From the NCBI RefSeq assembly GCF_014640155.1, contig NZ_BMGK01000001.1, forward strand, positions 62,001 to 126,000: 64,000 nucleotides of DNA, given 5' to 3'. The position numbers and the translations under genes were made by a program. Positions 2,811 to 56,251 of the stretch are shown here, piece after piece. Within the stretch, counting starts at the first letter, position 1. Each line of letters starts with the position of its first letter. This DNA is from Planktosalinus lacus (GTDB taxonomy: Bacteria; Bacteroidota; Bacteroidia; Flavobacteriales; Flavobacteriaceae). Below the pieces are notes generated by a model, which saw only the letters and a program-made list of their open reading frames with translations, made no database searches and was not told where the DNA came from.

Positions 2811-2887
2811 AAACAAAATCTAAGGGGAATTCGTATACCTGAATGGAAGAAATTATCTTAAAATGTATGGTATTGAATTTTTCTTGT

Positions 2888-2895
2888 TAACTTTG
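2888..2895 (+). promoter_or_regulatory. Candidate -7 box for tatA
   Basis: TAACTTTG matches TAnnTTTG and ends 19 bp before the tatA ATG at 2915. This leaves a short leader. No well-spaced -33 TTTG is apparent. Confidence 0.45.
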
Positions 2896-2914
2896 CAGTC
2901 TAAATTTGAGACAT

Positions 2915-3106
2915 ATGAATGCTTTATTTATTCCTTTAGCGATTGGTCCCTGGCAGATTGCTTTAATTGTTGTCATTGTTCTTTTGTTGTTTGGAGGAAA
3001 GAAAATTCCTGAGTTAATGCGCGGATTGGGTAGTGGAATTAAAGAATTTAAGGATGCTTCCAAAGAAGAAGAAAAAGATGAAAGTGAAAAAATAGATAAA
3101 AAATAA
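2915..3106 (+). CDS. tatA: Sec-independent protein translocase subunit TatA
   Basis: This 63-residue protein forms the TatA component of the twin-arginine pathway, which exports folded proteins across the inner membrane. It has the expected form: a short N-terminus, one membrane helix (about residues 10-27) ending in the FGGKKIPEL hinge, an amphipathic helix and an acidic/basic tail. The ATG at 2915 was chosen because an upstream in-frame TTG at 2906 would only add three residues and leave little room after the -7 box. It stands alone with no tatC nearby, which is common in Bacteroidota. A hairpin terminator follows directly. Confidence 0.93.
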
Positions 3107-3126
3107 ACTTCCCATTATACTTACAT

Positions 3127-3157
3127 AAAAAAATCCGCCAAAAGCGGATTTTTTTTA
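3127..3157. terminator. Bidirectional intrinsic terminator between tatA and the DUF4837 gene
   Basis: AAAATCCGC (3130-3138) pairs with GCGGATTTT (3144-3152) and is flanked by an A-tract on the left and a T-tract on the right. It can therefore stop transcription of tatA and of the convergent lipoprotein gene, whose stop codon lies inside the hairpin's T-tract. Confidence 0.8.
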
Positions 3158-9379: not shown

Positions 9380-9395
9380 TGTTTCACGTGGAACA
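9380..9395. other. parS-like site downstream of mnmG
   Basis: TGTTTCACGTGGAACA differs from a perfect 16-bp palindrome at one base pair and matches the general parS consensus TGTTnCACGTGnAACA bound by chromosomal ParB. It fills most of the 31-bp gap between the mnmG stop codon and the methyltransferase start. A second copy lies at 11292-11307. Confidence 0.7.
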
Positions 9396-11267
9396 TTACC
9401 TTCCCATGTATACCAACATTACAGAAATATCATTTGGAGACACACCACTGATGCGAGATGCTTGTGAAATTGTGGTGGGCCTTATTTTGGTCAACTTTTC
9501 TTTTGCTTCAAATGAAAGAGACTTCAGCTTTGAATAATCAAAATCATTAGGAATTTTAATTCCTTCAAGTCTGTTTAACTTGTCAGCATTGTTTTTTTCT
9601 TTATCAATATATCCTGAATATTTCACTTGTATTTCAACTTGTTCTAAAATCTCATTGTCAAAATTATTTTCATTTATAAATGCTTCTACTGTTGGAATTT
9701 TACGCATATCATTTAGAGTGATATTAGGGCGTGAAAATACTTTAAACATTTTATCACTCTGCTTAATTAATGCAGAATTTTTTTCTTTAAGTATGGGATT
9801 CATCTCCTCTACTGAAAAACTGGTTTTTTTAAAAAAGTTTACAAAGGCAGAAGATTTTTCTTGCTTTTCTACCATTCGTTGCATTCTCGACTCTTTAGCT
9901 AAACCAATTGCAAATGACTTTGGTGTTAGTCTAAAATCAGCATTATCTTGTCTTAGTAGTGTTCTGTATTCTGCTCTTGAAGTGAACATTCTGTAGGGTT
10001 CTTCAGTTCCCTTTGTAATCAAATCGTCAATTAAAACACCTATATAAGCCTCATTTCTTTTTAGAATGAAGGGTTCTTTTCTGTGTGCTTTTAAATGTGC
10101 ATTGATACCCGCCATTAAACCTTGAGAGGCCGCTTCTTCATAACCTGTAGTACCATTAATTTGGCCTGCAAAAAACAGTCCATCTACAAGTTTGGTTTCC
10201 AAAGTATGTTTTAATTGTGTGGGAGGGAAATAATCATATTCAATAGCATACCCAGGTCTGAAAAATTTCACGTTTTCAAATCCTGCAACAGAACGCAAAG
10301 CCTTAAACTGAACATCCTCTGGCAAGGAAGTAGAAAATCCATTTACATAAAACTCTACTGTATTCCAGCCTTCAGGTTCAACAAAAAGTTGGTGTCTGTC
10401 TTTATCTGCAAAGCGATTGATCTTATCCTCAATGGATGGGCAGTATCTTGGCCCGATACTTTTAATACGGCCATTAAACATCGGCGATCTATCAAAACCA
10501 TCTTTTAGCAACTCATGAACCGTTGGACTGGTATATGTCATATAACAAGAACGCTGACTTGACAAAGGGTTTGTTTGGTCTGAAAAGGAAAATTTTTCTG
10601 GAATGGGATCTCCTGATTGTTCTTCCATTTTGGAGAAATCAAGTGAACGACCATCTACACGTGGAGGTGTTCCGGTCTTCATTCTGCCTGATTCAAACCC
10701 TAAATTAATAAGGTCTTCAGTAATTCCCGTTGATGCTTTTTCCCCTGCACGACCACCACCAAATTGTTTGTCACCTATATGGATGAGGCCATTTAAAAAA
10801 GTTCCATTCGTTAGAATAACGGTTTTTGCCTTTATCTCAATACCAAGACCCGTTTTAACACCTACTATTTTATTGTTCTTTACAATTAGTCCGGACACCA
10901 TATCTTGGTAAAAATCAAGATTAGGGGTTTGTTCAAGCATTAGCCTCCAAGTTTCTGCAAATTTCATGCGATCACTTTGCACACGTGGACTCCACATGGC
11001 TGGACCCTTTGATTTATTAAGCATTTTAAATTGAATTGCTGTTTTATCTGATACAATTCCACTGTAACCACCCATGGCATCAATTTCACGCACAATTTGC
11101 CCTTTGGCAATTCCACCCATGGCTGGATTGCAGGACATTTGTGCAATATTTTGCAAGTTCATTGTTATAAGCAGGGTTTTCGAGCCCATATTAGCTGCAG
11201 CTGCAGCTGCTTCTGAACCTGCGTGCCCACCTCCAACTATAATAACTTCATACTCATTTTCAAACAT
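9396..11267 (-). CDS. mnmG: tRNA uridine-5-carboxymethylaminomethyl modification enzyme MnmG (GidA)
   Basis: This 623-residue FAD protein works with MnmE to modify the wobble uridine of several tRNAs. The FAD-binding motif VIIVGGGHAGSEAA is at residues 8-21, and the family signatures CNPAMGG and GIAKGQIVREIDAMGG follow at about 46-70. The later FAGQINGTTGYEEAA signature is also present. The length is typical. The gene is bracketed by two parS-like sites: one in the leader just upstream of the ATG, the other directly after the stop. A minus-strand promoter with both boxes lies at 11360-11328. In many bacteria gidA lies near oriC and the par genes, although parA and parB are not in this window. 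Confidence 0.97.
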   Translation of the reverse strand: MFENEYEVIIVGGGHAGSEAAAAAANMGSKTLLITMNLQNIAQMSCNPAMGGIAKGQIVREIDAMGGYSGIVSDKTAIQFKMLNKSKGPAMWSPRVQSDRMKFAETWRLMLEQTPNLDFYQDMVSGLIVKNNKIVGVKTGLGIEIKAKTVILTNGTFLNGLIHIGDKQFGGGRAGEKASTGITEDLINLGFESGRMKTGTPPRVDGRSLDFSKMEEQSGDPIPEKFSFSDQTNPLSSQRSCYMTYTSPTVHELLKDGFDRSPMFNGRIKSIGPRYCPSIEDKINRFADKDRHQLFVEPEGWNTVEFYVNGFSTSLPEDVQFKALRSVAGFENVKFFRPGYAIEYDYFPPTQLKHTLETKLVDGLFFAGQINGTTGYEEAASQGLMAGINAHLKAHRKEPFILKRNEAYIGVLIDDLITKGTEEPYRMFTSRAEYRTLLRQDNADFRLTPKSFAIGLAKESRMQRMVEKQEKSSAFVNFFKKTSFSVEEMNPILKEKNSALIKQSDKMFKVFSRPNITLNDMRKIPTVEAFINENNFDNEILEQVEIQVKYSGYIDKEKNNADKLNRLEGIKIPNDFDYSKLKSLSFEAKEKLTKIRPTTISQASRISGVSPNDISVMLVYMGR

Positions 11268-11291: not shown

Positions 11292-11307
11292 TGTTCCACG
11301 TGGAACA
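11292..11307. other. parS-like site upstream of mnmG
   Basis: TGTTCCACGTGGAACA is a perfect 16-bp palindrome matching the parS consensus TGTTnCACGTGnAACA. It lies 24 bp upstream of the mnmG ATG, between the candidate promoter and the gene, so it would be transcribed in the leader. Confidence 0.75.
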
Positions 11308-22916: not shown

Positions 22917-25118
22917 TTATTTTTCGACCTCTTCTCTACTTCCAATTAAAGTAAAATCCAGCTGTTTTTTGACTAAATCTGCTTGTTTTACTTTTACAAA
23001 AACCTCATCTCCAAGTTGATATACTTTTTTAGTTTTACTACCCACAACAGCATATTGGTCTCTGTCAAAAGTGTAGTGATCATCTCTTAACTCACGTAAA
23101 CTAACCATTCCTTCACATTTGTTTTCTATAATTTCTACATAAATTCCCCATTCTGTAACTCCTGAAATTACACCTAAAAACTGTTCATCCTTATGGTCAA
23201 CCATATATTTTACCTGCATATATTTTATGCTATCGCGTTCTGCACTGGTAGCAAGGCCTTCCATATCACTTGAATGGCGGCATTTTTCTTCATAAACTTC
23301 TTCTTTTTGAGTAGGTTTTCCATCCAGATAGATTTGCAATAATCGATGCACCATTACATCAGGATAACGTCTAATTGGTGAAGTGAAATGTGAATAATAA
23401 TCAAACGCCAGACCGTAATGTCCAATGTTTTGAGTTGAATATTCTGCTTTACTCATTGTGCGAATAGCGAGCGTATCAATGAGATTTTGTTCTTTTTTTC
23501 CTTTTACATCTACAAGTAGCTTATTGAGAGAGGCATTTGTGGTTTTACGGTCACGTGTGTTAATTTTATATCCAAAGCGTTTAATAATTCCTTCCAAAGC
23601 TGATAACTTTTCATCATTTGGCTCATCATGAACTCTGTAAACAAATGTTTTCTTTGGTGTTTGTTTTCCTATAAATTCAGCTACTTTTTTGTTTGCTAAA
23701 AGCATAAACTCTTCAATAAGATGATTTGCTTCTTTACTTTCCTTGAAATAAACACCGGTTGGGTTGTTTTCCTCATCAAGTTTGAATTTTACTTCAACTT
23801 TATCAAATGAAATTGCTCCATTCTGCATGCGTTTTCTTCGCATGGTTTTTGCTAATTTATTGAGTGTTTTAACAGCGTCAACAATCGTTTCTTTAGCGTG
23901 GTAAGTTTTTCCTGTTAAAGAAAACTCTGCCGAAATTTCTCCTTTTCCAGTTTCAATAATCTGTTGAGCCTCTTCATAAGCAAAACGGGCATCACTTAAA
24001 GTTACTGTTCTTCCAAACCATTCATTTTTAATTTGAGCTTTTTCGTTAATTTCAAAAACAGCTGAAAAAGTAAATTTTTCTTCATTTGGTCTTAGGGAAC
24101 ATGCAAAATTTGATAGTACTTCAGGAAGCATAGGTACAACTCGGTCAACTAAATAAACTGATGTTGCTCTTTCATAAGCTTCATCATCTAATATGGTATT
24201 GGGTTGTAAATAATGAGAAACATCTGCGATGTGAATTCCTACTTCATAGTTTCCATTTTCTAATACTTGAAAACTCAATGCATCATCAAAATCTTTTGCA
24301 TCTGCAGGATCAATTGTGAAGGTTAAAACCTTTCGCATATCTCTGCGTTTTTTAACTTCTTCAGGATGTATTTTTGTATCTATATTTTCTGCAAATTTTT
24401 CAATTTCTGGTGCAAAATCGTGTGGCAATCCATATTGTGCAAGAATTGAATGTATTTCAGTATTGTGTTCACCCGGTTTACCCAGTACTTTAATAACTGT
24501 TCCAAAAGGAGAATCTGCTTTTTCTGGCCATTCATCCATTCTTACCAATACTTTATCTCCTTGTTGTGCATTACCTATTTTGTCTTTCGAAACAAAAATA
24601 TCGGTATACATTTTACCATCAGCAGTTGAAACAAATGCAAATTTTTGCTGAATATCAATAACCCCAACAAATTCAGTTTTGTTGCGTTTTAAAATGTTAG
24701 TGATTTCACCTTCAAGTTTTGAATTTTTTCTTCTTTTATAAATATAAACTTCTACTTCATCGCCATTGAATGCTTTATTGATGTTTTTATTAGATACAAA
24801 AACATCATCTTCAAGCCCTTCAACAACTACATATCCCTGGCCTCTAGTAGTCATATCCAGTTTTCCAGTATGGTATTGATTTCCTTTTTTAATCCGGTAT
24901 TTACCTTTATCAATTTCTTCTATTTGTTGTTTTCCTAGAAGTTCTTTCAATTTTTTAATTATTTGATTTCTACTACTTGGATCATCTAAACCCATTTTAG
25001 CACCAATTTGTTTATAATTGAACGAATTTGATGGATTTAATAATAAAATTTTTAAGATACTTTCGGAGAGATTTGGAATCTTATTGGTTGATTTTTTTCT
25101 TTTTTTCTTTGCAGACAT
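22917..25118 (-). CDS. rnr: Ribonuclease R
   Basis: This 733-residue 3'-to-5' exoribonuclease degrades structured RNA. The order of domains is an N-terminal winged-helix (about 15-75), cold-shock domains (about 80-210), the RNB catalytic domain and a C-terminal S1 domain (about 640-715). The RNB metal-binding cluster TIDPADAKDFDDAL is at residues 268-281 with its Asp residues intact. A lysine-rich N-terminus (SAKKKRKKS) may bind RNA. It reads leftward with the LysE-type exporter downstream, and is divergent from a DUF2007 gene. Confidence 0.96.
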   Translation of the reverse strand: MSAKKKRKKSTNKIPNLSESILKILLLNPSNSFNYKQIGAKMGLDDPSSRNQIIKKLKELLGKQQIEEIDKGKYRIKKGNQYHTGKLDMTTRGQGYVVVEGLEDDVFVSNKNINKAFNGDEVEVYIYKRRKNSKLEGEITNILKRNKTEFVGVIDIQQKFAFVSTADGKMYTDIFVSKDKIGNAQQGDKVLVRMDEWPEKADSPFGTVIKVLGKPGEHNTEIHSILAQYGLPHDFAPEIEKFAENIDTKIHPEEVKKRRDMRKVLTFTIDPADAKDFDDALSFQVLENGNYEVGIHIADVSHYLQPNTILDDEAYERATSVYLVDRVVPMLPEVLSNFACSLRPNEEKFTFSAVFEINEKAQIKNEWFGRTVTLSDARFAYEEAQQIIETGKGEISAEFSLTGKTYHAKETIVDAVKTLNKLAKTMRRKRMQNGAISFDKVEVKFKLDEENNPTGVYFKESKEANHLIEEFMLLANKKVAEFIGKQTPKKTFVYRVHDEPNDEKLSALEGIIKRFGYKINTRDRKTTNASLNKLLVDVKGKKEQNLIDTLAIRTMSKAEYSTQNIGHYGLAFDYYSHFTSPIRRYPDVMVHRLLQIYLDGKPTQKEEVYEEKCRHSSDMEGLATSAERDSIKYMQVKYMVDHKDEQFLGVISGVTEWGIYVEIIENKCEGMVSLRELRDDHYTFDRDQYAVVGSKTKKVYQLGDEVFVKVKQADLVKKQLDFTLIGSREEVEK

Positions 25119-25230: not shown

Positions 25231-25470
25231 ATGATTAATTATGTTGTTGCAGCTGTTTTTACTTATGCTCATGAATTTGCGGTTTTGCGACTTATTTTAG
25301 AGCAACGTCACATTGCTCACTTTTTTCAAAACGAAACGATGCTAAGTGTAATTCCATTTCATTCTTACGCTTTAGGGGGTATTCGTTTAATGGTTCATCC
25401 TGATGATCTTGAGCAAGTAAAAGAAATCATTAATGATTTAAAACATAATAAAGACCTTCACATAGTTTAG
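25231..25470 (+). CDS. DUF2007 domain-containing small protein
   Basis: This 79-residue protein resembles the DUF2007 family (putative signal-transducing, GlnB-like alpha/beta fold). It has an N-terminal beta strand, a helix (FAVLRLILEQRHIAHF), and a C-terminal segment GGIRLMVHPDDLEQVKEIIND typical of these domains. No membrane segment is present. The function is unknown. It is separated from rnr by a 112-bp divergent spacer, and the longest gene-free stretch of the window follows it. Confidence 0.82.
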   Translation: MINYVVAAVFTYAHEFAVLRLILEQRHIAHFFQNETMLSVIPFHSYALGGIRLMVHPDDLEQVKEIINDLKHNKDLHIV

Positions 25471-25998
25471 TTTTATTAACAACTATAATATATACATTTA
25501 TTTTTATTTTAAATTTAAAAACAAAATGATGCTTATTATAGTATGTTAATATGTAGTATAACTTTTTTTATTTTTGTTTTGATTTTTACTTATAATCATT
25601 TTCAAACCGGTTATCAACAGTTTTTACAATACTAAAATTTTAAGAATCAATATAGATAGTAATTTAAATTAACAGTTGTCAATAACTAAAACTAACTTTA
25701 CTTTTTGATAATTAATTTTAATAATTATGGTTAAGATCACTTAAATTTTGGATGAAAACTTCGCTATAAAAAGTTAAAAACAAATTAGGTTTCTCCGTTA
25801 AAATTTACATATGAAATTTTATATTGAGGAAAGCAAGCTTACTTTTTGAATTTGAACCACTATTTGTAAACAATTTTAACAAAATTTTAATTATCTAAAT
25901 ATTAAGCTATTGTAAAGATAAATTAACAATGTAAAATTTAGTTGTTAATAACCGATGTTTTGTACTTTTGTTAACCAATCTAATCTAAAATAATCCTT
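25471..25998. other. 528-bp A+T-rich gene-free region with DnaA-box-like motifs
   Basis: No open reading frame of note, tRNA or known RNA is visible. The sequence is strongly A+T-rich. It holds TTATTAACA at 25473-25481, TTATCAACA at 25611-25619 (one mismatch to the DnaA box TTATCCACA), TGTCAATAA at 25677-25685 and TGTTAATAA at 25943-25951, the last two being minus-strand versions. The rpiB promoter occupies the right end. A replication-origin or regulatory role is possible but unproven. Confidence 0.45.
25942..25970 (+). promoter_or_regulatory. Candidate promoter for rpiB and the CDF gene
   Basis: TTG (25942-25944) is followed after 18 bp by TACTTTTG (25963-25970), a good match to the Bacteroidota promoter. 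It leaves a leader of about 22 nt before the rpiB ATG. Confidence 0.6.
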
Positions 25999-26430
25999 AT
26001 GAAACTTGCTATTGGAAATGATCATGCAGGCACAGAATACAAATTTTCAGTTCTTGAATTATTAAAAGAGCGTGGATTCGAAGTTATCAACCATGGCACA
26101 GATTCAGAAGAAAGCGTTGATTATCCCGATTTTATTCATCCTGTTGCCGAGGATGTTGAAAAGGGTAAGGTTGATTTTGGAATTATTATTTGTGGAAGTG
26201 GAAACGGTGCTTCAATGACTGCAAATAAACATAAAAATGTGCGTTCTGCACTCTGCTGGACCAAAGAAATCACTGCTCTGGCTCGTCAACATAACAATGC
26301 AAATATTTTAAGTCTTCCGGCACGGTTTATTTCAAAACCACAAGCAATCGAAATGGTAAAAACTTTCTTAGACACCCCTTTTGAAGGAGGCAGACATCAA
26401 AATCGTGTCAATAAAATTGCGTGTAACTAA
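25999..26430 (+). CDS. rpiB: Ribose-5-phosphate isomerase B (RpiB/LacAB family)
   Basis: This 143-residue enzyme interconverts ribose 5-phosphate and ribulose 5-phosphate in the pentose phosphate pathway. The N-terminus MKLAIGNDHAGTEYK is diagnostic, with DYPDF at 41-45, the probable catalytic Cys at C65 in IIICGSGNGASM, and H98 in the RQHNNANIL motif. The usual GSGIG is GSGNG here, a change also seen in related sequences. The downstream CDF transporter gene begins 17 bp later, so they are likely co-transcribed. Confidence 0.93.
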   Translation: MKLAIGNDHAGTEYKFSVLELLKERGFEVINHGTDSEESVDYPDFIHPVAEDVEKGKVDFGIIICGSGNGASMTANKHKNVRSALCWTKEITALARQHNNANILSLPARFISKPQAIEMVKTFLDTPFEGGRHQNRVNKIACN

Positions 26431-35089: not shown

Positions 35090-35953
35090 TTAAGAGTTAA
35101 AAAGTTCATTAAAAGTAAAACGCTCTTTGAGTCGCACTCCTTTTTCGGTGTGTTGCACAGTAATGATTTCCTGATGGGCATCATGTTCAAGGAACAGGTA
35201 AAAGTTTTCATCGGCAGCGCGATTTAAAAACTGTGCTTTTTCATCGAGTGTTAAAAGGGGGCGGGTATCATAACCCATCACAAAAGGCAGAGGAATATGA
35301 CCGGCAGTAGGCAAGAGGTCTGCCATAAAGCAGAGGGTTTTATCTTTGTATTTTAGCATGGGAATCATCTGTTTTTCAGTATGCCCATCTGCAAAAAACA
35401 CGCCAAAATCGAGTTCGCTATTCTCCTGAAAGATATTTCCGTTTTGATGAATAAAGTTTAGCTGTCCACTTTCTTGTATGGGAATGATATTTTCTTTTAA
35501 AAAGGACGCCTTTTCACGGGCATTGGGATTTGTTGCCCAGTTCCAGTGATTTTCATTGCTCCAGAATTTTGCATTCTTAAATGCAGGTTCATAAGCTGTG
35601 CGATTTTTATTCCATTGAATACTGCCACCACAGTGGTCAAAGTGCAAATGGGTTAAAAACACATCTGTAATATCATTACGATGAAAACCGATGTTTTTAA
35701 GGGAGTCGTCAAGATTGTGTTCTCCCCAACGATAGTAGTAACCAAAAAACTTTTCACTTTGCTTATCACCCATGCCGTTGTCTATGAGAATAAGTCGATT
35801 ACCCTCTTCAATCAATAAACAACGCGCTGCAATGTCAATCATATTATTGGCATCTGCGGGATTGGTTTTATTCCAAAGTGTTTTGGGAACTACACCAAAC
35901 ATGGCTCCTCCATCGAGTTTAAAATTTCCTGCTTCTATAGGATATAAAGTCAT
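35090..35953 (-). CDS. MBL-fold metallo-hydrolase
   Basis: This 287-residue protein carries the metallo-beta-lactamase signature THLHFDHCGG (HxHxDH) near residue 105, a downstream His in FADGHTEKQM and a further Asp (MADLLPTAGHIP). It has no signal peptide. Members include lactonases, glyoxalase II-like enzymes and other hydrolases; the substrate cannot be assigned. It is the first gene of the leftward hydrolase unit and starts at the ATG at 35953. Confidence 0.9.
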   Translation of the reverse strand: MTLYPIEAGNFKLDGGAMFGVVPKTLWNKTNPADANNMIDIAARCLLIEEGNRLILIDNGMGDKQSEKFFGYYYRWGEHNLDDSLKNIGFHRNDITDVFLTHLHFDHCGGSIQWNKNRTAYEPAFKNAKFWSNENHWNWATNPNAREKASFLKENIIPIQESGQLNFIHQNGNIFQENSELDFGVFFADGHTEKQMIPMLKYKDKTLCFMADLLPTAGHIPLPFVMGYDTRPLLTLDEKAQFLNRAADENFYLFLEHDAHQEIITVQHTEKGVRLKERFTFNELFNS

Positions 35954-36075
35954 ATCAATTTTTTAAAAGGTTGCAAATTAAGAAATGCCTTTCATTTTTG
36001 TAAATCTAAGCTCTTGATTTGGGGGATTTTTAACAAATAATATGGTACACGAAAACTGCTTTGGAATACGTTATA

Positions 36076-36083
36076 TATATTTG
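36076..36083 (+). promoter_or_regulatory. Candidate -7 box for the first micro-lipoprotein
   Basis: TATATTTG matches the -7 consensus and lies 19 bp before the ATG at 36103. A TTTG at 36060-36063 is too close (12 bp) to be a standard -33 element. Confidence 0.4.
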
Positions 36084-36102
36084 ATGCTGAAAACTCACTT
36101 TT

Positions 36103-36324
36103 ATGAAACAATTTTTTTCACTCGCCGGAATCTCATTTCTTTTTTTCATTTCGTGTAAAAGCGATGACACACCTGAGTGTAGAAGTTGTAGTTCAGAGCT
36201 TACTTCGACGTTCAACCTTTGCAAAGAAAGTAATGGAAATGCATCAGTTAATGGAGAAGACACTGGCGTGAGTTATGCCATATATCTTGATGGTTTGGTT
36301 GCTGAAGGAGTTTCTTGTAATTGA
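36103..36324 (+). CDS. Small Cys-rich lipoprotein, probably surface-exposed
   Basis: This 73-residue protein has a clear lipoprotein signal (MKQFFSLAGISFLFFISC; lipidated Cys18). The mature peptide is only about 55 residues and carries four further Cys (26, 29, 40, 72), enough for two disulfides. The residues after the lipidated Cys (KSDD) resemble the acidic lipoprotein export signal used for surface display in Bacteroidota. No family with known function is recognised. A second small lipoprotein with the same plan follows 82 bp downstream, so they form a tandem pair. Confidence 0.75.
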   Translation: MKQFFSLAGISFLFFISCKSDDTPECRSCSSELTSTFNLCKESNGNASVNGEDTGVSYAIYLDGLVAEGVSCN

Positions 36325-36406
36325 GAATGATTCTAAAAGAGGGATTTGTATTTAATTTTCTAAAAATTAGTTTCATATTGCCATAAACTAAATAACAAAA
36401 ACAATT

Positions 36407-36667
36407 ATGAAACAACTAATTTTATCTATCGCAGCTGTTGCTGTATTTTCATTTACATCCTGTTCAAGTGATGATGACGGTGGCACAAGCTGTGAGCAAT
36501 TGCTAATTAACCTTAACGCTGCTGCTGAAGCTTGGATTCAAAACCCTGAATCGCAGTCACATTGTAACGATTACAGAGCGTCCATAGAGGCCTTTATGGG
36601 TAGAGAATGTACTGGAAGCGATGCGTATGCATCACTTTTAGCTGAATTGAGTTGTTCTGATTTGTAA
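36407..36667 (+). CDS. Small Cys-rich lipoprotein, second of a tandem pair
   Basis: This 86-residue protein begins with a lipoprotein signal (MKQLILSIAAVAVFSFTSC; lipidated Cys19) followed by SSDDD, an acidic stretch typical of surface-export signals. The mature part is helical, Ala-rich and carries four Cys (29, 53, 68, 83). It shares the size, signal and four-Cys plan with its neighbour but little other sequence, so common ancestry is uncertain. Similar small lipoproteins occur in Bacteroidota; I know of no function. A strong terminator follows. Confidence 0.78.
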   Translation: MKQLILSIAAVAVFSFTSCSSDDDGGTSCEQLLINLNAAAEAWIQNPESQSHCNDYRASIEAFMGRECTGSDAYASLLAELSCSDL

Positions 36668-36695
36668 TTTCAATTAAAAATAAGAACTTAATATT

Positions 36696-36742
36696 AACCC
36701 TAAACTTATATTAAAAATATAAAGTTTGGGGTTGTTTTTTTA
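36696..36742 (+). terminator. Intrinsic terminator after the micro-lipoprotein pair
   Basis: A long hairpin pairs AACCCTAAACTTATAT (36696-36711) with ATATAAAGTTTGGGGTT (36717-36733), with one bulge and one G-T pair, and is followed by a T-run that overlaps the stop codon of the convergent lepA. Confidence 0.7.
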
Positions 36743-43872: not shown

Positions 43873-44280
43873 ATGAATAAAATAGAACATATTGGGATTG
43901 CTGTAAAAAACCTTGAAGAATCTAACAAAACTTATGCAGCATTATTGGGAACTACACATTATAAAATTGAAGAAGTAGCAAGCGAGCACGTAAAAACGTC
44001 GTTTTTTAAAGTTGGCGAAAGTAAAATTGAATTACTGGAGGCATTAAACCCCGAAAGCCCGATTGCAAAATTTATTGAAAAACGAGGAGAAGGAATCCAT
44101 CACATTGCATTTTACGTAGATGATATAAATAAAGAGTTAAAACGCTTAAAGGAGGAAGGTTTTGTAGCTTTAAACGAGATTCCAAAAAAAGGAGCTGATA
44201 ATAAGTTGGTTGCCTTTTTACACCCAAAATCAGTAAACGGAGTTTTGGTTGAGCTTTGCCAAGAAGACACAAATGTTTAA
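43873..44280 (+). CDS. mce: Methylmalonyl-CoA epimerase
   Basis: This 135-residue vicinal-oxygen-chelate enzyme interconverts the (R)- and (S)-forms of methylmalonyl-CoA. The N-terminus MNKIEHIGIAVKNLEES supplies the first His ligand. GEGIHHIAFYVDDI provides the second metal site and NGVLVELCQ the final Glu. The length and motif order are diagnostic. I chose the ATG at 43873, since an upstream extension would be atypical and would overlap rbfA. The mutase genes are not in the window. A GTTTGC/GCAAAC hairpin lies just after the stop. Confidence 0.93.
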   Translation: MNKIEHIGIAVKNLEESNKTYAALLGTTHYKIEEVASEHVKTSFFKVGESKIELLEALNPESPIAKFIEKRGEGIHHIAFYVDDINKELKRLKEEGFVALNEIPKKGADNKLVAFLHPKSVNGVLVELCQEDTNV

Positions 44281-44284
44281 AAAA

Positions 44285-44317
44285 GTTTGCTACATAAGCA
44301 AACTAGTTTTAAATTTG
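44285..44317 (+). promoter_or_regulatory. Candidate promoter for the CAU tRNA, with overlapping inverted repeat
   Basis: TTTG (44286-44289) is followed after 20 bp by TAAATTTG (44310-44317), a good Bacteroidota promoter. The -33 element sits inside the inverted repeat GTTTGC-N7-GCAAAC (44285-44303), which could also be a weak terminator for the upstream gene. The tRNA begins about 105 bp downstream. Confidence 0.5.
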
Positions 44318-44424
44318 CCGTCACATTAAAGAAACCTTATTTTTAAATCCCTTGTTTTACTAAATAAAACACAAGCCTAACAAGAGTGTTATAAAATAAA
44401 AGTTCTCAAAAAAACAATCAAAAA

Positions 44425-44498
44425 GGTCCCATAGCTCAGCTGGTTAGAGCACCTGACTCATAATCAGGGGGTCCATGGTTCGAGCCCATGTGGGACCA
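44425..44498 (+). tRNA. tRNA with CAU anticodon (elongator Met or lysidine-type Ile)
   Basis: The 74-nt cloverleaf has acceptor GGTCCCA/TGGGACC, D-arm AGCTCAGCTGGTTAGAGCA, anticodon stem CCTGA/TCAGG around the loop CTCATAA (anticodon 44459-44461), a T-arm with GGTTCGAGCC and discriminator A. It is not the initiator, because the first pair is G-C and the stem lacks three consecutive G-C pairs. Met elongator and Ile2 (lysidine) cannot be separated by eye. CCA is not encoded. Confidence 0.9.
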
Positions 44499-44738
44499 CT
44501 TTTTTTATTTCAAAATCTTATTTCTTATTTGAGATATATAAATTTTCTGCAATTTTATTTTTTTGGCTTAATTTATTTATATTTGACTCTCCTCACACAT
44601 TTACAAGCTAAGCCTAAGTAATAATTTGATTTTGGGCGTTTTTACCGTAGCTTAACACGACATAAACAATTTTAGTTTAGATTTGCCGTTTTGCTAGTTG
44701 TTTGATAAAATAGTAATTTAGTTGAACCCTATACAATT
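44499..44738. other. 240-bp spacer after the CAU tRNA
   Basis: No gene or structured RNA is seen. A TAGATTTG box at 44678-44685 could be the -7 element of the downstream small-protein gene. A short T-run directly after the tRNA (44501-44505) has no clear hairpin. Confidence 0.4.
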
Positions 44739-44963
44739 ATGCGACCCCAAATCGTGAAAAACATATTAGCCTTGTTTTTATTTCACTTAATTGTGTGTGT
44801 CTCTGCTATTGCTCAACAAAAATCACCCCCGCCCCCTCAGCCCGAAAGCACTCCTCCACCAGTTGGACTACCAATAGATGGCAATTTATGGGTTTTAATA
44901 ATAGTTGGTTTAATTATTGGCATCTACATTTTGGTAATTAAAACGAATTTAAAATCCAGATAG
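44739..44963 (+). CDS. Small secreted/membrane protein with Pro-rich linker and PIDG motif
   Basis: This 74-residue protein has a signal peptide (cleaved after about residue 26), a proline-rich linker (PPPPQPESTPPP), the motif VGLPIDGNLW, one membrane helix (about 51-66) and a short basic tail (KTNLKSR). The motif-helix-basic tail order resembles C-terminal sorting signals. I recall such tails being called PID-CTERM in Flavobacteriaceae, but this is from memory. The protein is almost nothing but signal, linker and tail. Its 3' end overlaps that of the convergent ribE by 15 bp. Confidence 0.72.
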   Translation: MRPQIVKNILALFLFHLIVCVSAIAQQKSPPPPQPESTPPPVGLPIDGNLWVLIIVGLIIGIYILVIKTNLKSR

Positions 44964-45628: not shown

Positions 45629-46690
45629 ATGAGCAAACAAGACAGCATTATAGTTGGTATTTCAATTGGAGATTTAAACGGGATTGGACCTGAAATTGTT
45701 TTAAAAACTTTTGAAGACCCAAGAATGTTAGAGTTTTGTACCCCTGTAATTTTTGCTTCTGTAAAAACCATGTCACTTATTAAAAAAGCCCTTGAAATCA
45801 ATGTAAATTTTCAAGGAATAGATCATTTAAACAAACTGGTCCACGGTAAAGTTAATATCCTCAATGTTTGGAGGGAATCGGCTGACATTTCATTTGGAAC
45901 AGAAACTCCCATGATGGGTGAATACGCCATCAAGTCTTTACAAGCTGCAGTAAAAGCATTAAAAACAGATGAGGTGGATGTTTTGGTGACAGCTCCTGTA
46001 AACAAACACAATATTCAGTCAGAAAAATTTAAATTTCCAGGGCACACAGATTATCTTGCACAAGAGTTAGGGGGAGAAAGCCTAATGTTTATGGTTTCAG
46101 ACACCCTTAGAGTGGGCTTGTTAACCGATCATATTCCTGTGAATGAGATTTCAAAACACATTACAAAATCACTGATTGAGAAAAAAATTAATTTAATTCA
46201 CGCGGCTTTAAAACAAGACTTTAGAGTAACAGTTCCTAAAATTGCTGTTTTGGGTATCAATCCACATACAGGGGACAATGGAGTTATTGGTAAAGAAGAC
46301 GATGAGGTTTTAAGGCCAACCCTCCAAAAAATCAATCACTCTGGAAAGATTGTATATGGACCTTATGCTGCCGATAGTTTTTTTGGTTCTGGGAATTACA
46401 AAAATTTTGATGCTATTGTGGCGGCTTATCATGACCAGGGTTTAATCCCTTTTAAAACAATTTCTTTTGGGAGTGGAGTCAATTTCACAGCTGGCTTAAG
46501 TAAAGTAAGGACGTCACCAGATCACGGTACCGCTTATGACATAGCCGGAAAAAATGAAGCAGATTTCACTTCATTTAGAGAGGCCGTATTTAAAGCGATT
46601 CAGATATACAATAACCGGAAAGAATATCTTGAAATCTCAAAAAACCCACTAAAACCTTCCGGCAAAAAGTTATCCACAAAAAAGGGTTGA
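45629..46690 (+). CDS. pdxA: 4-hydroxythreonine-4-phosphate dehydrogenase
   Basis: This 353-residue enzyme oxidises 4-phosphohydroxy-L-threonine in the deoxyxylulose 5-phosphate-dependent route to pyridoxal phosphate. It shows GDLNGIGPEI near residue 13, TAPVNKHNI, FPGHTDYLA, and the metal-binding region AAYHDQGLIPFKTISFGSGVNFTAGL. The DHGTAYDIAGKN motif near the C-terminus is conserved. The length is typical. The stop is followed at once by the promoter of the DUF177-rpmF-fab-acc unit. A perfect DnaA box (TTATCCACA) at 46670-46678 lies within its last codons. Confidence 0.96.
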   Translation: MSKQDSIIVGISIGDLNGIGPEIVLKTFEDPRMLEFCTPVIFASVKTMSLIKKALEINVNFQGIDHLNKLVHGKVNILNVWRESADISFGTETPMMGEYAIKSLQAAVKALKTDEVDVLVTAPVNKHNIQSEKFKFPGHTDYLAQELGGESLMFMVSDTLRVGLLTDHIPVNEISKHITKSLIEKKINLIHAALKQDFRVTVPKIAVLGINPHTGDNGVIGKEDDEVLRPTLQKINHSGKIVYGPYAADSFFGSGNYKNFDAIVAAYHDQGLIPFKTISFGSGVNFTAGLSKVRTSPDHGTAYDIAGKNEADFTSFREAVFKAIQIYNNRKEYLEISKNPLKPSGKKLSTKKG

Positions 46691-46771: not shown

Positions 46772-47320
46772 ATGAAGCAAATGAAAGAGTTTACAATTCC
46801 TTTTGTGGGATTGAAGCAGGGTGAGCATCATTTTGATTACAAAATTGATAATACGTTCTTTGAACATTTTGAGTATGATGAATTTAATAATGTAACCATT
46901 TCAGCGGAAGCGATTCTCGTTAAAAAGTCAAATGCGCTGGAATTTCACTTCACAATAAAAGGTTTTGTAAATGTTTATTGTGATTTAACCAACGAGCCTT
47001 ACGATCAAAAAGTTGAAGGAGAACACCATTTGGTAGTGAATTTTGGAGATGAATTTAATGATGAGGACGATGCATTGTTAATTCTACCTCACGGAAGCTA
47101 TGAAGTAACTATTCAGCAATATATTTATGAATTAATTATATTGTCACTTCCGGCAAAGAGGGTACATCCTGGTGTAGAGGATGGCACTTTAAATTCAGAA
47201 ATACTTGAAAAACTAAAAGAATTAACCCCAAAAGTTTCTGAAGAAGATTCTTCAGAAAAATCAGATAAAGAAATAGACCCCAGATGGGATCAATTAAAAA
47301 AACTATTAACGGATAAATAA
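46772..47320 (+). CDS. DUF177 (YceD) family protein
   Basis: This protein of about 182 residues belongs to the DUF177/YceD family, which is almost always encoded just before rpmF and is linked to 23S rRNA or ribosome large-subunit biogenesis in some bacteria. Features are the [18 protein letters not shown] start, the [20 protein letters not shown] core and an acidic tail ([17 protein letters not shown]). Three starts are possible: a GTG at 46754 preceded by a GGAAGGA Shine-Dalgarno-like sequence, and ATGs at 46772 and 46781. I chose 46772 because homologs begin near [11 protein letters not shown], but the GTG start deserves checking. Confidence 0.85.
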
Positions 47321-47328
47321 ATTTTGCG

Positions 47329-47526
47329 ATGGCACATCCTAAGAGAAAGATTTCAAAAACCAGAAGAGACAAAAGAAGAACACACTATAAAGCAACTGCT
47401 CCACAAATTGCTACAGATCCAACAACTGGAGAAGCTCATTTATACCATAGAGCACACTGGCATGAAGGGAAGCTTTACTACAGAGGTCAGGTAGTTATTG
47501 ATGCTGTTGAAGAAGTAGAAGCATAA
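47329..47526 (+). CDS. rpmF: 50S ribosomal protein L32
   Basis: This 65-residue protein starts with the diagnostic [21 protein letters not shown] and has the L32-type histidine/basic core ([15 protein letters not shown]). The Cys pairs of zinc-binding L32 forms are absent, as in many Bacteroidota. It follows the DUF177 gene by 8 bp. An intrinsic terminator after it may lower expression of the downstream fatty-acid genes or separate the two sub-units. Confidence 0.96.
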
Positions 47527-47547
47527 CAAGTTTTTTTCAAAAATTGA

Positions 47548-47577
47548 CAAACTCTCACAATTCGTGAGAGTTTTTTT
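47548..47577 (+). terminator. Intrinsic terminator after rpmF
   Basis: ACTCTCAC (47551-47558) pairs with GTGAGAGT (47564-47571) over a 5-nt loop and is followed by seven T. It lies between rpmF and fabH and could be partial. Confidence 0.85.
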
Positions 47578-47699
47578 GTTTTTAACTTTTCTATATCTCA
47601 AAAACAACCTATTTTGCACCTGTTTTAGACTAAAAATTTGTATTTTCATCTTATTATACGCTTTTTAGAGAAAAATTCAGTGAATTTTAAAAAAGTAAT

Positions 47700-48695
47700 A
47701 TGAGCAAAATCACAGCAGCAATCACCGCTGTAGGAGCCTATGTTCCAGATTTTGTATTGACCAATAAAATGCTTGAAAGTATGGTCGATACCAATGACGA
47801 ATGGATAACTACCAGAACCGGAATCAAAGAGCGAAGAATTTTAAAAGATAAAGATAAGGGTACTTCCTATCTTGCTATTCAAGCCGCCAAAGACTTACTT
47901 CAAAAACGCAATCTTGATCCCAAAGAAATTGACATGGTTATTATGGCAACCGCAACACCCGATATGCCAGTTGCTATCACATCTGCCTATGTCGCTACGG
48001 AAATTGGTGCTATTAACGCTTTTTCTTATGATTTAGTAGCTGCCTGCTCCAGCTTTCTTTTTGGAATGTCAACGGCAGCTCGTTATATTGAATCAGGAAA
48101 ATACAAAAAAGTACTCCTCATAGGCGCAGATAAAATGTCTTCAATCATAGATTATGAAGATAGAACGACATGTATTATATTTGGAGATGGAGGTGGTGCT
48201 GTATTGTTTGAACCTAATCAGGAGGGTTTGGGGCTTCAAGATGAAATTCTAAGAACCGATGGAATAGGAAGGCAATCACTAAATATTGAAGCCGGAGGCT
48301 CCTTGCTTCCTGCGTCTGCAGAAACAGTTGCCAACAAGAAACACTATGTGTTTCAGGACGGACAAACTGTTTTTAAATTTGCAGTTTCAAACATGGCCGA
48401 TGTAAGTGAAAAAATAATGCATAGGAACGGGCTGTCAAACGATTCTGTTCAATGGCTTGTTCCACATCAAGCAAATAAGAGAATCATTGATGCCACAGCA
48501 AGAAGAATGCAACTCAATGAGCAAAAAGTGATGATGAATATTGACCGTTATGGCAATACAACATCTGCCACATTACCTTTGCTTTTAAACGATTACGAAA
48601 AACAACTTAAAAAGGGAGACAATCTGGTTTTTGCTTCTTTTGGCGGTGGATTTACCTGGGGGTCAATCTACCTTACATGGGCATATAACAGTTAA
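47700..48695 (+). CDS. fabH: 3-oxoacyl-ACP synthase III (FabH)
   Basis: This 331-residue condensing enzyme starts fatty-acid synthesis by joining acetyl-CoA (or a branched acyl-CoA) to malonyl-ACP. The catalytic triad is C116 (AACSSFLFG), H256 (PHQANKR) and N286 (YGNTTSA). Length and fold are typical. In Flavobacteriaceae, branched primers are common, so isoleucine/valine-derived primers are plausible, though that is inference. It lies downstream of rpmF and 23 bp upstream of accB. Confidence 0.97.
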   Translation: MSKITAAITAVGAYVPDFVLTNKMLESMVDTNDEWITTRTGIKERRILKDKDKGTSYLAIQAAKDLLQKRNLDPKEIDMVIMATATPDMPVAITSAYVATEIGAINAFSYDLVAACSSFLFGMSTAARYIESGKYKKVLLIGADKMSSIIDYEDRTTCIIFGDGGGAVLFEPNQEGLGLQDEILRTDGIGRQSLNIEAGGSLLPASAETVANKKHYVFQDGQTVFKFAVSNMADVSEKIMHRNGLSNDSVQWLVPHQANKRIIDATARRMQLNEQKVMMNIDRYGNTTSATLPLLLNDYEKQLKKGDNLVFASFGGGFTWGSIYLTWAYNS

Positions 48696-53015: not shown

Positions 53016-54629
53016 ATGAAATCAAAAATTACACTATTGATAATTGCTTTTCTATCAATAAACACAGTTTTTTCTCAAATCAGTTTTACAACAGAAAACA
53101 TTGATGTTACAGGACAATATAAAATTTGTGCAGTAGACATGAATGGTGACTATCTGGATGATATTGTTTCAGTGAGTGGCACCAATATTAACATCCACTT
53201 TCAAAATGAAAATGGAACTTTCACCCCACAAGATTTTAATACAACTCCTGCTGACAACCTTCCATCATGGAGTTTATCTGCCGGTGACTATACCGGAAAC
53301 GGTTATAACGATTTAATCTATGGCAGTAGTAGTGGCGTAACCTTTATGAGAGCAAACAACAACGGAACCGCATATACTGAAGTTTCTTTTCCTGAGTTTG
53401 TTTTTGTACAACGCACAAATTTTGTTGATATCAACAATGATGGAAACCTTGATGCTTTTGCTTGTCATGATATTGCTCCTAATGTATATTTTATTAATGA
53501 CGGTAATGGGAATTTAGAATTTAATCAAGGCGGTCTTGGTGATGTGCCTGTTGGAGGCCATTATGGCTCTCTTTGGGTAGATTATAATAATGATGGAAAC
53601 TTAGACCTTTTCATTGCAAAATGCAGTGGAGGAGGTCAAGGTGCAACTGCAAAATTTAATGAACTACACAGAAACAATGGAGACGGCACTTTCACTGATG
53701 TAAGTGTTGAATCTGGTTTAAGAGACGCTGTTCAAACATGGTCATCAGCTTGGGGAGATTTTGATAATGATGGATTTATGGATGTTCTAGTAGGAGCCAG
53801 TTCTTTTTCTGATGGCGGTCATAAATTAATGAGAAATAATGGTGACGGAACTTTCACAGATATCACTGCAGGTTCCGGGTTTGATACCTTTGGCGGAACC
53901 AGTATAGAACACGCAACTTATGACTTCAACAATGACGGTTATCTTGATATTTTTGGAAATTCAAACACGTTGTTTATAAATAACGGGGACTTCACATTTA
54001 CAACCACAACAATTCCCTTTTCAGGAGCTGCAATAGCAGACCTCAACAATGATGGTTTTTTAGATGCTTTTCAGGGAAATGAGATACATTATAATAGTGG
54101 AAATAACAACAACTGGATTGTAATAAACACCCAAGGTGTTGAAAGCAACAGAAACGGAATTGGTGCCAGAATTGAGATTGTAAGTGCTCTTGGCACACAA
54201 ATTAGAGATGTTAGAAGTGGAGAAGGATTTCGATTTATGAGTACCCTTAACACTCATTTTGGAATCGGTCAAGACACCGAAATTGAGCAATTAATTGTAA
54301 GATGGCCTTCTGGAACTATCGATGTGATTGAAAACCCAGAGATTAATACCACTCACCTCATAGTTGAAGGACAAACACTTAGTGTAGAAGAAAACCGTTT
54401 GTTTGATTTAACACTTTCACCAAATCCCGTGAAGGATATTTTAGCGCTTTCTACTAGAGAAAATTTAATTGGAGCGCAGGCTCAAATTTATGACATGTCT
54501 GGAAGGTTGGTCTTTTCTGAAACATTAAATAGCAGCACAATTGATGTCTCTAAAGTTTCATCTGGAGTTTATGTGTTGAATTTAGATGTTAATGACCAAA
54601 AAGCAGCCATAAGATTTGTAAAGTATTAA
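53016..54629 (+). CDS. FG-GAP/VCBS repeat protein with ASPIC/UnbV domain and T9SS C-terminal signal
   Basis: This 537-residue protein has a signal peptide (residues 1-20) and about seven FG-GAP-type calcium-binding repeats (DMNGDYLDD, DINNDGNLDAF, DYNNDGNLDLF, DFDNDGFMDVL, DFNNDGYLDIF, DLNNDGFLDAF). These are expected to form a beta-propeller. An ASPIC/UnbV module (NGIGARIEIVSALGTQIRDVRSGEGF) follows at about 375-440, and a type IX secretion tail (FDLTLSPNPVKDI to KAAIRFVKY) closes it. It is likely secreted or surface-attached. The next gene is a close paralog. Confidence 0.92.
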   Translation: MKSKITLLIIAFLSINTVFSQISFTTENIDVTGQYKICAVDMNGDYLDDIVSVSGTNINIHFQNENGTFTPQDFNTTPADNLPSWSLSAGDYTGNGYNDLIYGSSSGVTFMRANNNGTAYTEVSFPEFVFVQRTNFVDINNDGNLDAFACHDIAPNVYFINDGNGNLEFNQGGLGDVPVGGHYGSLWVDYNNDGNLDLFIAKCSGGGQGATAKFNELHRNNGDGTFTDVSVESGLRDAVQTWSSAWGDFDNDGFMDVLVGASSFSDGGHKLMRNNGDGTFTDITAGSGFDTFGGTSIEHATYDFNNDGYLDIFGNSNTLFINNGDFTFTTTTIPFSGAAIADLNNDGFLDAFQGNEIHYNSGNNNNWIVINTQGVESNRNGIGARIEIVSALGTQIRDVRSGEGFRFMSTLNTHFGIGQDTEIEQLIVRWPSGTIDVIENPEINTTHLIVEGQTLSVEENRLFDLTLSPNPVKDILALSTRENLIGAQAQIYDMSGRLVFSETLNSSTIDVSKVSSGVYVLNLDVNDQKAAIRFVKY

Positions 54630-54649
54630 ACCTAAAATGAATTGCAATT

Positions 54650-56251
54650 ATGAAACAAACTATCTGTTTACTAACCACTTTATTTATTTTTTGTATAGGA
54701 ATTTCTCAGGTTAGTTTCCAATCAACAGGCATAAACACAACAGGACAATATAGCATTTGTGCAGTCGACATGAACGGTGATTTTCTAGATGATATTGTCT
54801 CAGTAAACACCACAAATATTCAAATCCATTTTCAAAATAACGATGGTTCTTTCACTGAGCAGAACTTTCCGGTAGCAGATGTTGAAAATGCGCCATCATG
54901 GAGTCTAGCAGCCGGAGATTTAACCGGCAATGGTTATAATGACTTGCTCTACGGAGGTGGTTCCGGAGTAACTTTTATGATTGCAAACAACGACGGAACA
55001 GCCTATACTCAAACATCATTTCCCGAGTTTATATTTTCTCAGCGCTCCAATTTTGTGGATATAAACAATGACGGAAATCTGGATGCCTTTGTTTGTCATG
55101 ATGTCGCTCCAAATGTTTATTTCATTAATGATGGCGATGGAAATCTTTCTTTCAATCAAGGTGGGATCGGTGATTTTCCAACGGGAGGTCATTATGGCTC
55201 GTTGTGGTTTGATTATAACAATGATGGCCTGCAGGATATGTTTATGGCAAAATGTGGCGGTAGCGTTGAACGACGAACCAACCAACTTTTAAAAAATAAT
55301 GGTGACGGAACTTTTACAGACGTTGCAATTGAAGCAGGATTGAACGACCCCATTCAAACTTGGTCTGCAGCTGTTGGAGATTATGACAATGACGGCTATA
55401 TGGATTTACTGGTAGGAGCAAGTTCCTTCACAGATGGTGGCCATAAACTTATGCGAAATAATGGTGATGGTACTTTTTCTAATATAACTGAGGGATCTGG
55501 ATTTGAAACATTTGAAGGCACTAGTGTTGAGCATGCAACTTATGATTTTAATAACGATGGATTTCTTGATATTTTCGGAAATTCTAATAAATTGTTCATT
55601 AACAACGGTGATTTAACTTTTACACAAATTTCCATCCCATTTTCCGGAGCTTCAATAGCAGATTTGAATAACGACGGGTTTCTAGATGCTTTTAGAGCAA
55701 CCACTATATATTATAATGAAGGAAACGACAATAACTGGATAGTTATTAATACAGAAGGAGTAGAAAGCAATATAAACGGAATAGGCGCCAGGGTAGAAAT
55801 CACGAGTGCTTTGGGCACTCAAATAAGGGATGTTAGAAGTGGTGAAGGGTTTCGGTATATGAGCACATTAAATACTCATTTTGGCATAGGAACAGACACA
55901 GAGATTGAGGAACTGGTAATAAAATGGCCCTCTGGAGTTGTAGATGTTATTCAAAACCCTGAAATAAATACAGTACATCATATTGTTGAAGGACAACACC
56001 TTGCTGTAACTGAATCCAATTTATATAGCTTTACCATTTCACCGGTCCCTGCAAATGAATCGTTAAACATTCATTTAAAAAATACATTTGATGAGGTTGA
56101 TTACTCAATTTATGATATCTCAGGAAGAGTTATAAGTACAGGAAAACTTGAATCAACCATTCTTTCGGTCGAACATTTATCCTCAGGTACTTACTTTTTG
56201 GAGGTTCAAATTGAGGGAGCAACTGCCACAAAGAGATTTGTAAAACAATAA
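54650..56251 (+). CDS. FG-GAP/VCBS repeat protein with ASPIC/UnbV domain and T9SS tail (tandem paralog)
   Basis: This 533-residue protein repeats the architecture of its upstream neighbour: signal peptide, seven FG-GAP repeats, ASPIC/UnbV domain and T9SS tail (SFTISPVPANESL to ATATKRFVKQ). The two proteins align along their whole length, clearly identical at more than half of positions by eye, so a tandem duplication is the simplest explanation. The tails have diverged more than the propellers. It begins 20 bp after the upstream stop, and a terminator follows. Confidence 0.92.
   Translation: MKQTICLLTTLFIFCIGISQVSFQSTGINTTGQYSICAVDMNGDFLDDIVSVNTTNIQIHFQNNDGSFTEQNFPVADVENAPSWSLAAGDLTGNGYNDLLYGGGSGVTFMIANNDGTAYTQTSFPEFIFSQRSNFVDINNDGNLDAFVCHDVAPNVYFINDGDGNLSFNQGGIGDFPTGGHYGSLWFDYNNDGLQDMFMAKCGGSVERRTNQLLKNNGDGTFTDVAIEAGLNDPIQTWSAAVGDYDNDGYMDLLVGASSFTDGGHKLMRNNGDGTFSNITEGSGFETFEGTSVEHATYDFNNDGFLDIFGNSNKLFINNGDLTFTQISIPFSGASIADLNNDGFLDAFRATTIYYNEGNDNNWIVINTEGVESNINGIGARVEITSALGTQIRDVRSGEGFRYMSTLNTHFGIGTDTEIEELVIKWPSGVVDVIQNPEINTVHHIVEGQHLAVTESNLYSFTISPVPANESLNIHLKNTFDEVDYSIYDISGRVISTGKLESTILSVEHLSSGTYFLEVQIEGATATKRFVKQ

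Follow-up and report, generated by a model that had tools for sequence, protein, structure and literature searches.

Where does replication of this chromosome begin? The original prediction, drawn from the window analysed here (64,000 nucleotides; bases 62001–126000 of the 477,821-bp contig C1, in a draft genome of 2,965,096 bp and 39 contigs), singled out an A+T-rich 528-bp spacer with DnaA-box-like motifs as a candidate ‘origin-proximal element’. Our analysis supports that reading more strongly than was claimed; the evidence, drawn from the sequence and its relatives, favours the spacer as the origin itself, and we consider it very probably to be oriC.

A gene-free spacer with clustered DnaA boxes

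Reading from left to right, the spacer and its surroundings comprise:

22917–25118, minus strand: rnr, ribonuclease R, divergent left neighbour (domains RNB, CSD2 and S1)
25231–25470, plus strand: conserved 79-aa ORF between rnr and the spacer (found in relatives by tblastn)
25471–25998, no strand: proposed oriC spacer, 528 bp, with four TTATNNACA boxes; conserved in relatives
25473–25481, plus strand: DnaA box TTATTAACA, left outer box; kept in close relatives, at a family peak near −525
25482–25524, no strand: A/T tract from left box to core, evident in A+T steps; candidate DNA unwinding element
25525–25541, minus strand: triplet block TAT AAT AAG CAT CAT, with a central A per triplet; trio-like
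25544–25552, minus strand: core inverted DnaA box ATATTAACA, one mismatch to TTATNAACA
25611–25619, plus strand: DnaA box TTATCAACA, at a family plus-strand peak at −400 to −380
25677–25685, minus strand: DnaA box TTATTGACA (TGTCAATAA on the plus strand), at a family minus-strand peak near −320
25864–25872, plus strand: degenerate box TTGTAAACA, family position about −135
25943–25951, minus strand: DnaA box TTATTAACA (TGTTAATAA on the plus strand), right box (motif scan, alignment)
25999–26430, plus strand: rpiB, ribose-5-phosphate isomerase B, right neighbour (LacAB_rpiB, 2.9e-57)

The coordinates first given for the spacer are right, and all four of the motifs then listed are in place. It is also, as had been claimed, the sole gene-free stretch of more than 300 bp once small ORFs and tRNAs are counted: the interval 35953–36740 holds ORFs of 73 and 86 aa, and hence is not gene-free; ORFs of 66 aa (TatA-like by reading) and 65 aa (L32-like by reading) lie within 2816–3155 and 47320–47700, respectively; and 44280–44949 contains a tRNA-Met together with a 74-aa ORF. 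A search of Rfam over the window returned two tRNAs and nothing else. Elsewhere in the window, the adjacent genes at 53016–56251 encode proteins (537 and 533 aa) that look much alike by eye, as a tandem duplication would leave them.

The 79-aa ORF, which may be DUF2007-like, has a tblastn match in 12 of 30 loci (the window’s own locus counted) and no match in Pfam at an E-value of 0.001. At the opposite edge, TACTTTTG (25963–25970) fits the −7 promoter motif of Bacteroidota, TAnnTTTG; with this fit in mind, rpiB may be transcribed from the right-hand margin of the putative origin.

Within the spacer TTATNNACA occurs four times, whereas 5000 dinucleotide shuffles average 0.47 and reach four in 0.12% of cases (P = 0.0012). 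Across the whole window the same motif shows no excess (21 versus 18.4 expected), and nor does TTATCCACA with one mismatch (20 versus 21.0); the unusual thing is therefore the clustering in the spacer alone. A perfect TTATCCACA is absent from the spacer, the sole copy in the window lying at 46670, and the E. coli box alone was dropped as a marker, its counts being at chance across the window. The G+C content of the 528 bp is 0.188, with an A+T content of 84–94% in 50-bp steps around the left box and tract and of 70–86% in later steps; the boxes are thus accompanied by the A/T-rich region that would be expected of an oriC.

Conservation of the boxes and of a core beside the A/T tract

At 19% G+C, and with motif counts at chance window-wide, the clustering could in principle arise simply because an ordinary intergenic region is rich in A+T. 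Such an explanation is contradicted by dinucleotide shuffling of these spacers, by comparison with other intergenic DNA from these loci and by positional conservation, all detailed in this section, and we find it scarcely credible. Conservation of the motifs in relatives had been set beforehand as a test of the spacer as an origin element, and is found in close relatives, in a set of 30 spacers and in 72 named loci.

A search with rpiB matched 57 of 60 genomes (own included), and 30 loci were cut out as a first set: the window itself and 29 relatives. In 25 of these, rnr or the 79-aa ORF stands at the left, with a gap to rpiB of 487–885 bp. The 30 spacers contain 104 copies of TTATNNACA, distributed over 27 of them, versus 14.5 (s.d. 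4.3, largest 25) in 60 shuffled sets, as well as 37 copies of TTATCCACA at no more than one mismatch (21/30), versus 5.7 in shuffles. A blind 9-mer search of the same spacers, with no preset motif, is topped by DnaA-box variants: GTTATCAAC ranks first (11/30; 0.15 expected), GTTATCCAC second (7/30; 0.10 expected) and TTATCCACA sixth (6/30; 0.14 expected).

The second set consists of 80 named loci, the nearest by rpiB being mostly Flavobacteriaceae, the family to which the present genome too would on this showing belong, and may overlap the first in species; rnr is divergent and upstream of rpiB in 77 of the 80. All 80 entered the distance profile, including six that were left out of the density count as their rpiB ORF was not called (L131, L145, L149, L154, L158 and L175); L179 and L182, having no left gene, were also left out, such that 72 were scored. 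Median spacer length for the 72 is about 600 bp, with five spacers of less than 330 bp retained (L138, L146, L150, L183 and L186), three of them short from a small ORF called inside and two from a 172-aa ORF before rpiB. The rpiB spacers of the 72 loci hold 224 boxes, or 5.14/kb; around ten times the density of other intergenic DNA (0.50/kb in 139 stretches longer than 150 bp, same loci), with coding DNA of the same loci at 0.36/kb. Binned by 250 bp, density is 3.7–5.6/kb in the three bins (750 bp) before rpiB and 0.05–1.1/kb elsewhere, to 6 kb on both sides of the gene. By motif, TTATCAACA and TTATCCACA each stand at about 30 times, and TTATTAACA at 12 times, their first-order expectation (95 spacers).

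The boxes also keep to preferred sites. In a positional profile of 107 sequences (110 less three near-duplicates), plus-strand boxes peak near −525, about −395 and about −130 relative to rpiB, and minus-strand boxes about −325; those of the window at −526 (+), −388 (+) and −322 (−) match the family peaks. Among six aligned close sequences, of which L006 and L114 differ hardly at all from each other, all retain the left box, with changes at its degenerate fifth base only, the right box reads TGTNNATAA in all six, and the site of TTGTAAACA reads TTATAAACA in the other five. This is the conserved, beyond-chance cluster of DnaA boxes looked for in an oriC. On a larger scale, the spacer ranks first for boxes in three of four 400-kb stretches and ties in the fourth. 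The three-box spacing has a single occurrence in the own draft genome, at the spacer, but was rejected as a family-wide marker for being too strict: in its strict form it is found in 26 of 299 family genomes versus 10 of 299 with a reversed control pattern, and several of the 26 matches are unlike origins.

Immediately right of the left outer box sits a conserved core of ~50 bp, formed from a T-rich run, an A-rich run, ATG-ATG-nTT-ATK-ATA-G, two bases, TGTTAATA, ATAAC and then T’s. Its block pattern was first drawn by eye, from k-mers enriched in the 9-mer search and from the window. The weight matrix was built from the same 110 rpiB-upstream sequences that it scores, window included, and hence applied leave-one-out, with near-duplicates kept in the counts; on this footing the core exceeds 10 bits in 102 of the 110 (median 42 bits), with no match on the reverse strand of any (largest 3.5 bits). 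The eight sequences below 10 bits are L183 and L186, in which the core has been displaced (see below); L156 and L163, where it is altered but recognisable; L024 (7.9 bits) and L152 (2.0 bits); L021, which ends at a contig end; and L175 (Avrilella), with neither rnr nor core near rpiB.

In six 400-kb stretches, whose own spacers, where among the 110, helped to build the matrix, the best match is in each case the spacer, and the 400 kb scanned hold one strong core match in each of the six genomes. For the own genome the score is 51.4 bits at window position 25525, with the next at 3.7, and the nearest competitor in any stretch reaches 14.3 versus 30.0 bits (in G034); a refined matrix gives a similar outcome.

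The internal geometry of the core is equally regular. It starts 52–54 bp from a plus-strand box in 71 of the 77 matches that have such a box within 30–80 bp (a further 27 have none in that range), and the T-run then A-run of the tract are conserved across 100 aligned sequences. Over the five triplets, conservation of the central adenine is 100, 100, 92, 87 and 93%; all five are present in 82 of 100 sequences and at least four in 95, and a test by frame gives 0.94 versus 0.11 and 0.30 in the other two frames. The core box lies within one mismatch of TTATNAACA in 76 of 100 sequences, and within two of TTATCCACA in just 34, the window’s own having three.

Outside the Flavobacteriaceae, the core is not convincing in 21 loci from other families of the order (L255–L275; best 9.1 bits, L268). 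In eight of the 21, the weak best match lies on the plus strand, 368–484 bp before rpiB, and several of the spacers hold two to four boxes; they are perhaps a diverged version of the same origin.

Neighbouring genes, parS and strand asymmetry

REARRANGEMENTS separate the element from its gene neighbours. In G023, a single contig, the order is rpiB (954.6 kb), rnr (992.0 kb) and mnmG (1277.0 kb), with a seven-box cluster, the densest among 20 stretches read, running from 991.2 kb beside rnr; there is no box cluster at rpiB, 37 kb away, nor at mnmG, 285 kb away. The core-matrix scan finds no match at this cluster, though the boxes are kept. In two Flavobacterium loci (L183 and L186), where a gene has been inserted before rpiB, the core is found 2.3–2.4 kb upstream, on the rnr side, at about 44 bits. 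Conversely, L016, L023, L026 and L029 keep the core on the rpiB side (34–61 bits), with rnr not found in the 1.2–1.5 kb read before rpiB; the spacer of L016 has the core and no TTATNNACA. Since boxes or core part from rpiB or from rnr on rearrangement, the element is tied to neither gene.

This bears directly on an alternative in which the spacer is a DnaA-binding regulatory or titration locus, or a DnaA-controlled promoter for rnr/rpiB, near the true origin. Such loci exist (datA and DARS titrate or regulate DnaA) and they too carry DnaA boxes; moreover, the spacer sits between divergent genes, and skew minima drift by tens of kb. However, boxes or core persist both in the four spacers lacking rnr at the left and where rpiB is displaced (G023, L183 and L186), so that service to one gene alone would not explain them; four 400-kb stretches show no second box cluster that recurs in a fixed position; and the core beside its A/T tract resembles an origin. 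We judge a titration or promoter role improbable, and oriC the better description of the spacer.

The original prediction also pointed to a parS-like pair about 14 kb from the spacer. The pair is real, at 9380 and 11292, and 14–16 kb away:

9380–9395, no strand: parS-like site TGTTTCACGTGGAACA (pattern TGTTNCACGTGNAACA)
9396–11267, minus strand: mnmG (gidA), between the parS-like sites (GIDA)
11292–11307, no strand: parS-like site TGTTCCACGTGGAACA (pattern TGTTNCACGTGNAACA)

Allowing up to one mismatch, TGTTNCACGTGNAACA occurs in the whole genome at those two sites only; the exact pattern is present in 261 of 299 family genomes and a reversed control, by reading of rows, in two. As 16-bp palindromes near the proposed origin and rare elsewhere, the sites have the attributes of a putative parS centromere. 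They exactly flank mnmG, ~1.9 kb apart, and similarly spaced pairs are seen in many of the listed family genomes, a recurrence that suggests selection for the pair. In G023, three parS sites (997.1–998.8 kb) lie 5–8 kb from the box cluster.

The distance from mnmG to rpiB is 3.5–40 kb, on one contig, in 22 of 28 family genomes; for the remaining six it is ~18 kb in G025 if the record is circular and 322 kb in G023, with the two genes on different contigs in four. Two further stretches give 15 kb (G101) and 61 kb (G034). An origin at mnmG/parS, about 15 kb left of the spacer, would have precedent, in that Ori-Finder origins have been placed by mnmG in Mariniflexile and Algorimicrobium (PMC11278836, PMC12843772) and in Yersinia, as in E. 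coli, the predicted oriC has gidA (mnmG) at its side (PMC10225481); in the first two papers mnmG may have been named because it serves as an indicator gene. Against it, mnmG has no TTATNNACA cluster in this window, with two boxes (11839 and 12181) within 2 kb; the skew switch of G014 falls much nearer to rpiB than to mnmG (see below); and in G023 mnmG is remote both from the boxes and from the parS sites, the latter at a distance of about 280 kb. We therefore hold an mnmG origin to be very improbable, and keep to the spacer.

The own dnaA gene is no closer a candidate: it is found on contig C8, away from the window’s contig C1, and its flanks carry three scattered boxes in 3.5 kb versus 0.94 expected. 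In all seven genomes compared (G014, G021, G023, G024, G025, G032 and G101), dnaA lies at least 0.9 Mb from rpiB or, for G023, from the boxes.

A minimum of GC skew at the spacer had been put forward as a check, and the outcome is divided: the region is borne out, the spacer itself is not, the minimum of the own contig being shallow and 15 kb off (raw cumulative skew, contig position 103230, window 41230). Raw minima over 400 kb in G014, G021 and G032 fall 21–47 kb from rpiB, and raw cumulative skew was set aside as a pinpointer; it points to the region and is nearly flat over tens of kb. Correction for gene strand at third codon positions (60 bootstraps; 10–90% ranges in brackets) puts the switch of G032 at −53 bp relative to rpiB (−2 to +22 kb) and that of G014 at −4.9 kb (10th and 90th percentiles identical), 16 kb from mnmG. 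For the own genome it falls at +42 kb (38 to 268 kb), for G021 at −61 kb (−61 to +0.7 kb), for G101 at +25 kb (−179 to +33 kb) and for G034 at −47 kb (−53 to −13 kb); that is, within 5 kb of rpiB in two of six genomes and 25–61 kb off in four. Averaged over the six, cumulative skew reaches its minimum at +20 kb and hardly varies between 0 and +40 kb. Skew locates the origin in the region, but alone does not pick the spacer.

Much the same can be said of the change in gene polarity claimed for this point, which holds at the 100-kb scale (of the coding length, 19% is rightward over the 100 kb to the left and 61% over the 100 kb to the right) and fails at the spacer itself, where the nearest 20 kb give 23% at left and 33% at right, and every gene longer than 100 aa at 28.4–38.5 kb reads leftward. 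Polarity near the spacer lends the origin reading little support.

Proposed origin opening and relation to known origins

From the observed motifs, their enrichment, positions and conservation, the separation from either neighbour and the uniqueness of the parS pair, we infer DnaA binding, melting, an order of events and origin activity, as follows. DnaA, expressed from its distant gene, would bind the dispersed TTATNAACA-type boxes; from the inverted core box at 25544–25552, a DnaA filament would extend leftward over the minus-strand triplets (25525–25541) and enter the adjoining T/A tract (25482–25524), which would melt between the core box and the convergent outer box at 25473. Helicase could then load and forks depart both ways, with ParB, on the parS pair at mnmG 14–16 kb off, gathering and segregating the new origins.

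The core has parallels with the Basal Unwinding System (BUS) of Bacillus subtilis, described as DnaA boxes, a spacer and DnaA-trios (PMC6669920, PMC8287927). A published search for the BUS looks for three or more N-A-N triplets no further than 16 bp from a DnaA box (PMC8287927), for which we allowed at most two mismatches. As in the BUS so described, a box-like 9-mer is followed, after 3 bp of which the last is C, by five central-A triplets on the same strand and in the same direction, and then by an A/T-rich tract. Unlike it, the triplets are mostly 3'-TAC-5' or 3'-TAT-5' by column frequencies, the published trio consensus 3'-GAT-5' not being seen in the core; in addition, the core box is degenerate, and a second, convergent box lies beyond the A/T tract at 52–54 bp. 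Because the architecture fits, whilst the trio consensus fails and the box of the core, judged by that of E. coli, is a weak one, we would say that the core ‘works like a BUS, perhaps a variant’ rather than that it is one.

More broadly, it is conceivable, and we offer it tentatively, that Flavobacteriaceae share a rigid origin-opening module (an outer DnaA box, a 43–45 bp mostly T/A tract, five lower-strand central-A triplets and an inverted degenerate box), as a variant BUS with 3'-TAC-5' trios in which two convergent DnaA complexes would grip the tract and melt it. The form of the module would then be maintained as the genes around it change, some genomes having it apart from rnr and others apart from rpiB.

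The oriC of E. coli is likewise intergenic, with a DnaA-box cluster by an A/T-rich unwinding region; it adjoins gidA (mnmG) and prefers TTATYAACA. The spacer resembles it in placing a box cluster next to an A/T-rich region between genes, and differs in lying 14 kb from mnmG, in its other neighbours and in its box preference. Within the Flavobacteriales, the predicted 649-bp oriC of Elizabethkingia meningoseptica, as outlined in PMC8994065, is similar in size, box number (three) and distance from dnaA (nearly 1.9 Mb). Closest of all is Tenacibaculum, of the same family, where Ori-Finder 2022 predicts origins at the same gene: of seven closed chromosomes, six have theirs directly beside rpiB and the seventh has it close by, on which account the chromosomes were oriented on rpiB, by the description in PMC9864904. 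The present analysis adds to this account where the boxes lie, a core that is conserved, tests by rearrangement and how the element stands to parS. The kind of origin and its rpiB location in one genus were already known; what is contributed here is the anatomy across the family, together with the core and the tests of separation. Neither the core nor family-wide conservation was met with in the open-licence papers searched.

Bacteroidota origins have sometimes been assigned to dnaA by default, as parts of three papers illustrate (PMC11278836, PMC10197239, PMC5771137): maps are drawn with oriC at dnaA in PMC5771137, a dnaA-assigned origin did not fit the skew plot in PMC11278836, and caution over dnaA as an origin marker is advised in PMC10197239. 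The Figure 3 legend of PMC11278836 has leuB and dnaA as oriC and mnmG as ter, contradicting the text it accompanies. Blattabacterium reportedly lacks dnaA and recognisable boxes altogether, its origin being placed by skew in dapB (PMC2768785, in the relevant passage). A family-wide oriC core would serve to orient draft genomes, give growth rates from coverage and guide oriC plasmid design; as a candidate unwinding motif that differs from the Bacillus consensus, the core also lends itself to testing.

As for the presumed initiator, the own DnaA is canonical by its sequence, matching solved DnaA chains over its N-terminal, AAA+ and C-terminal parts; entry 1j1v, which we take to be DnaA domain IV on a DnaA box, is among them. 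The protein (L001 973–2400) reads RDHATVLHA where the best-matching chain has RDHTTVIHA, with alanine at the x of RDHxTV where that chain has threonine; this alanine may go with the relaxed box TTATNAACA.
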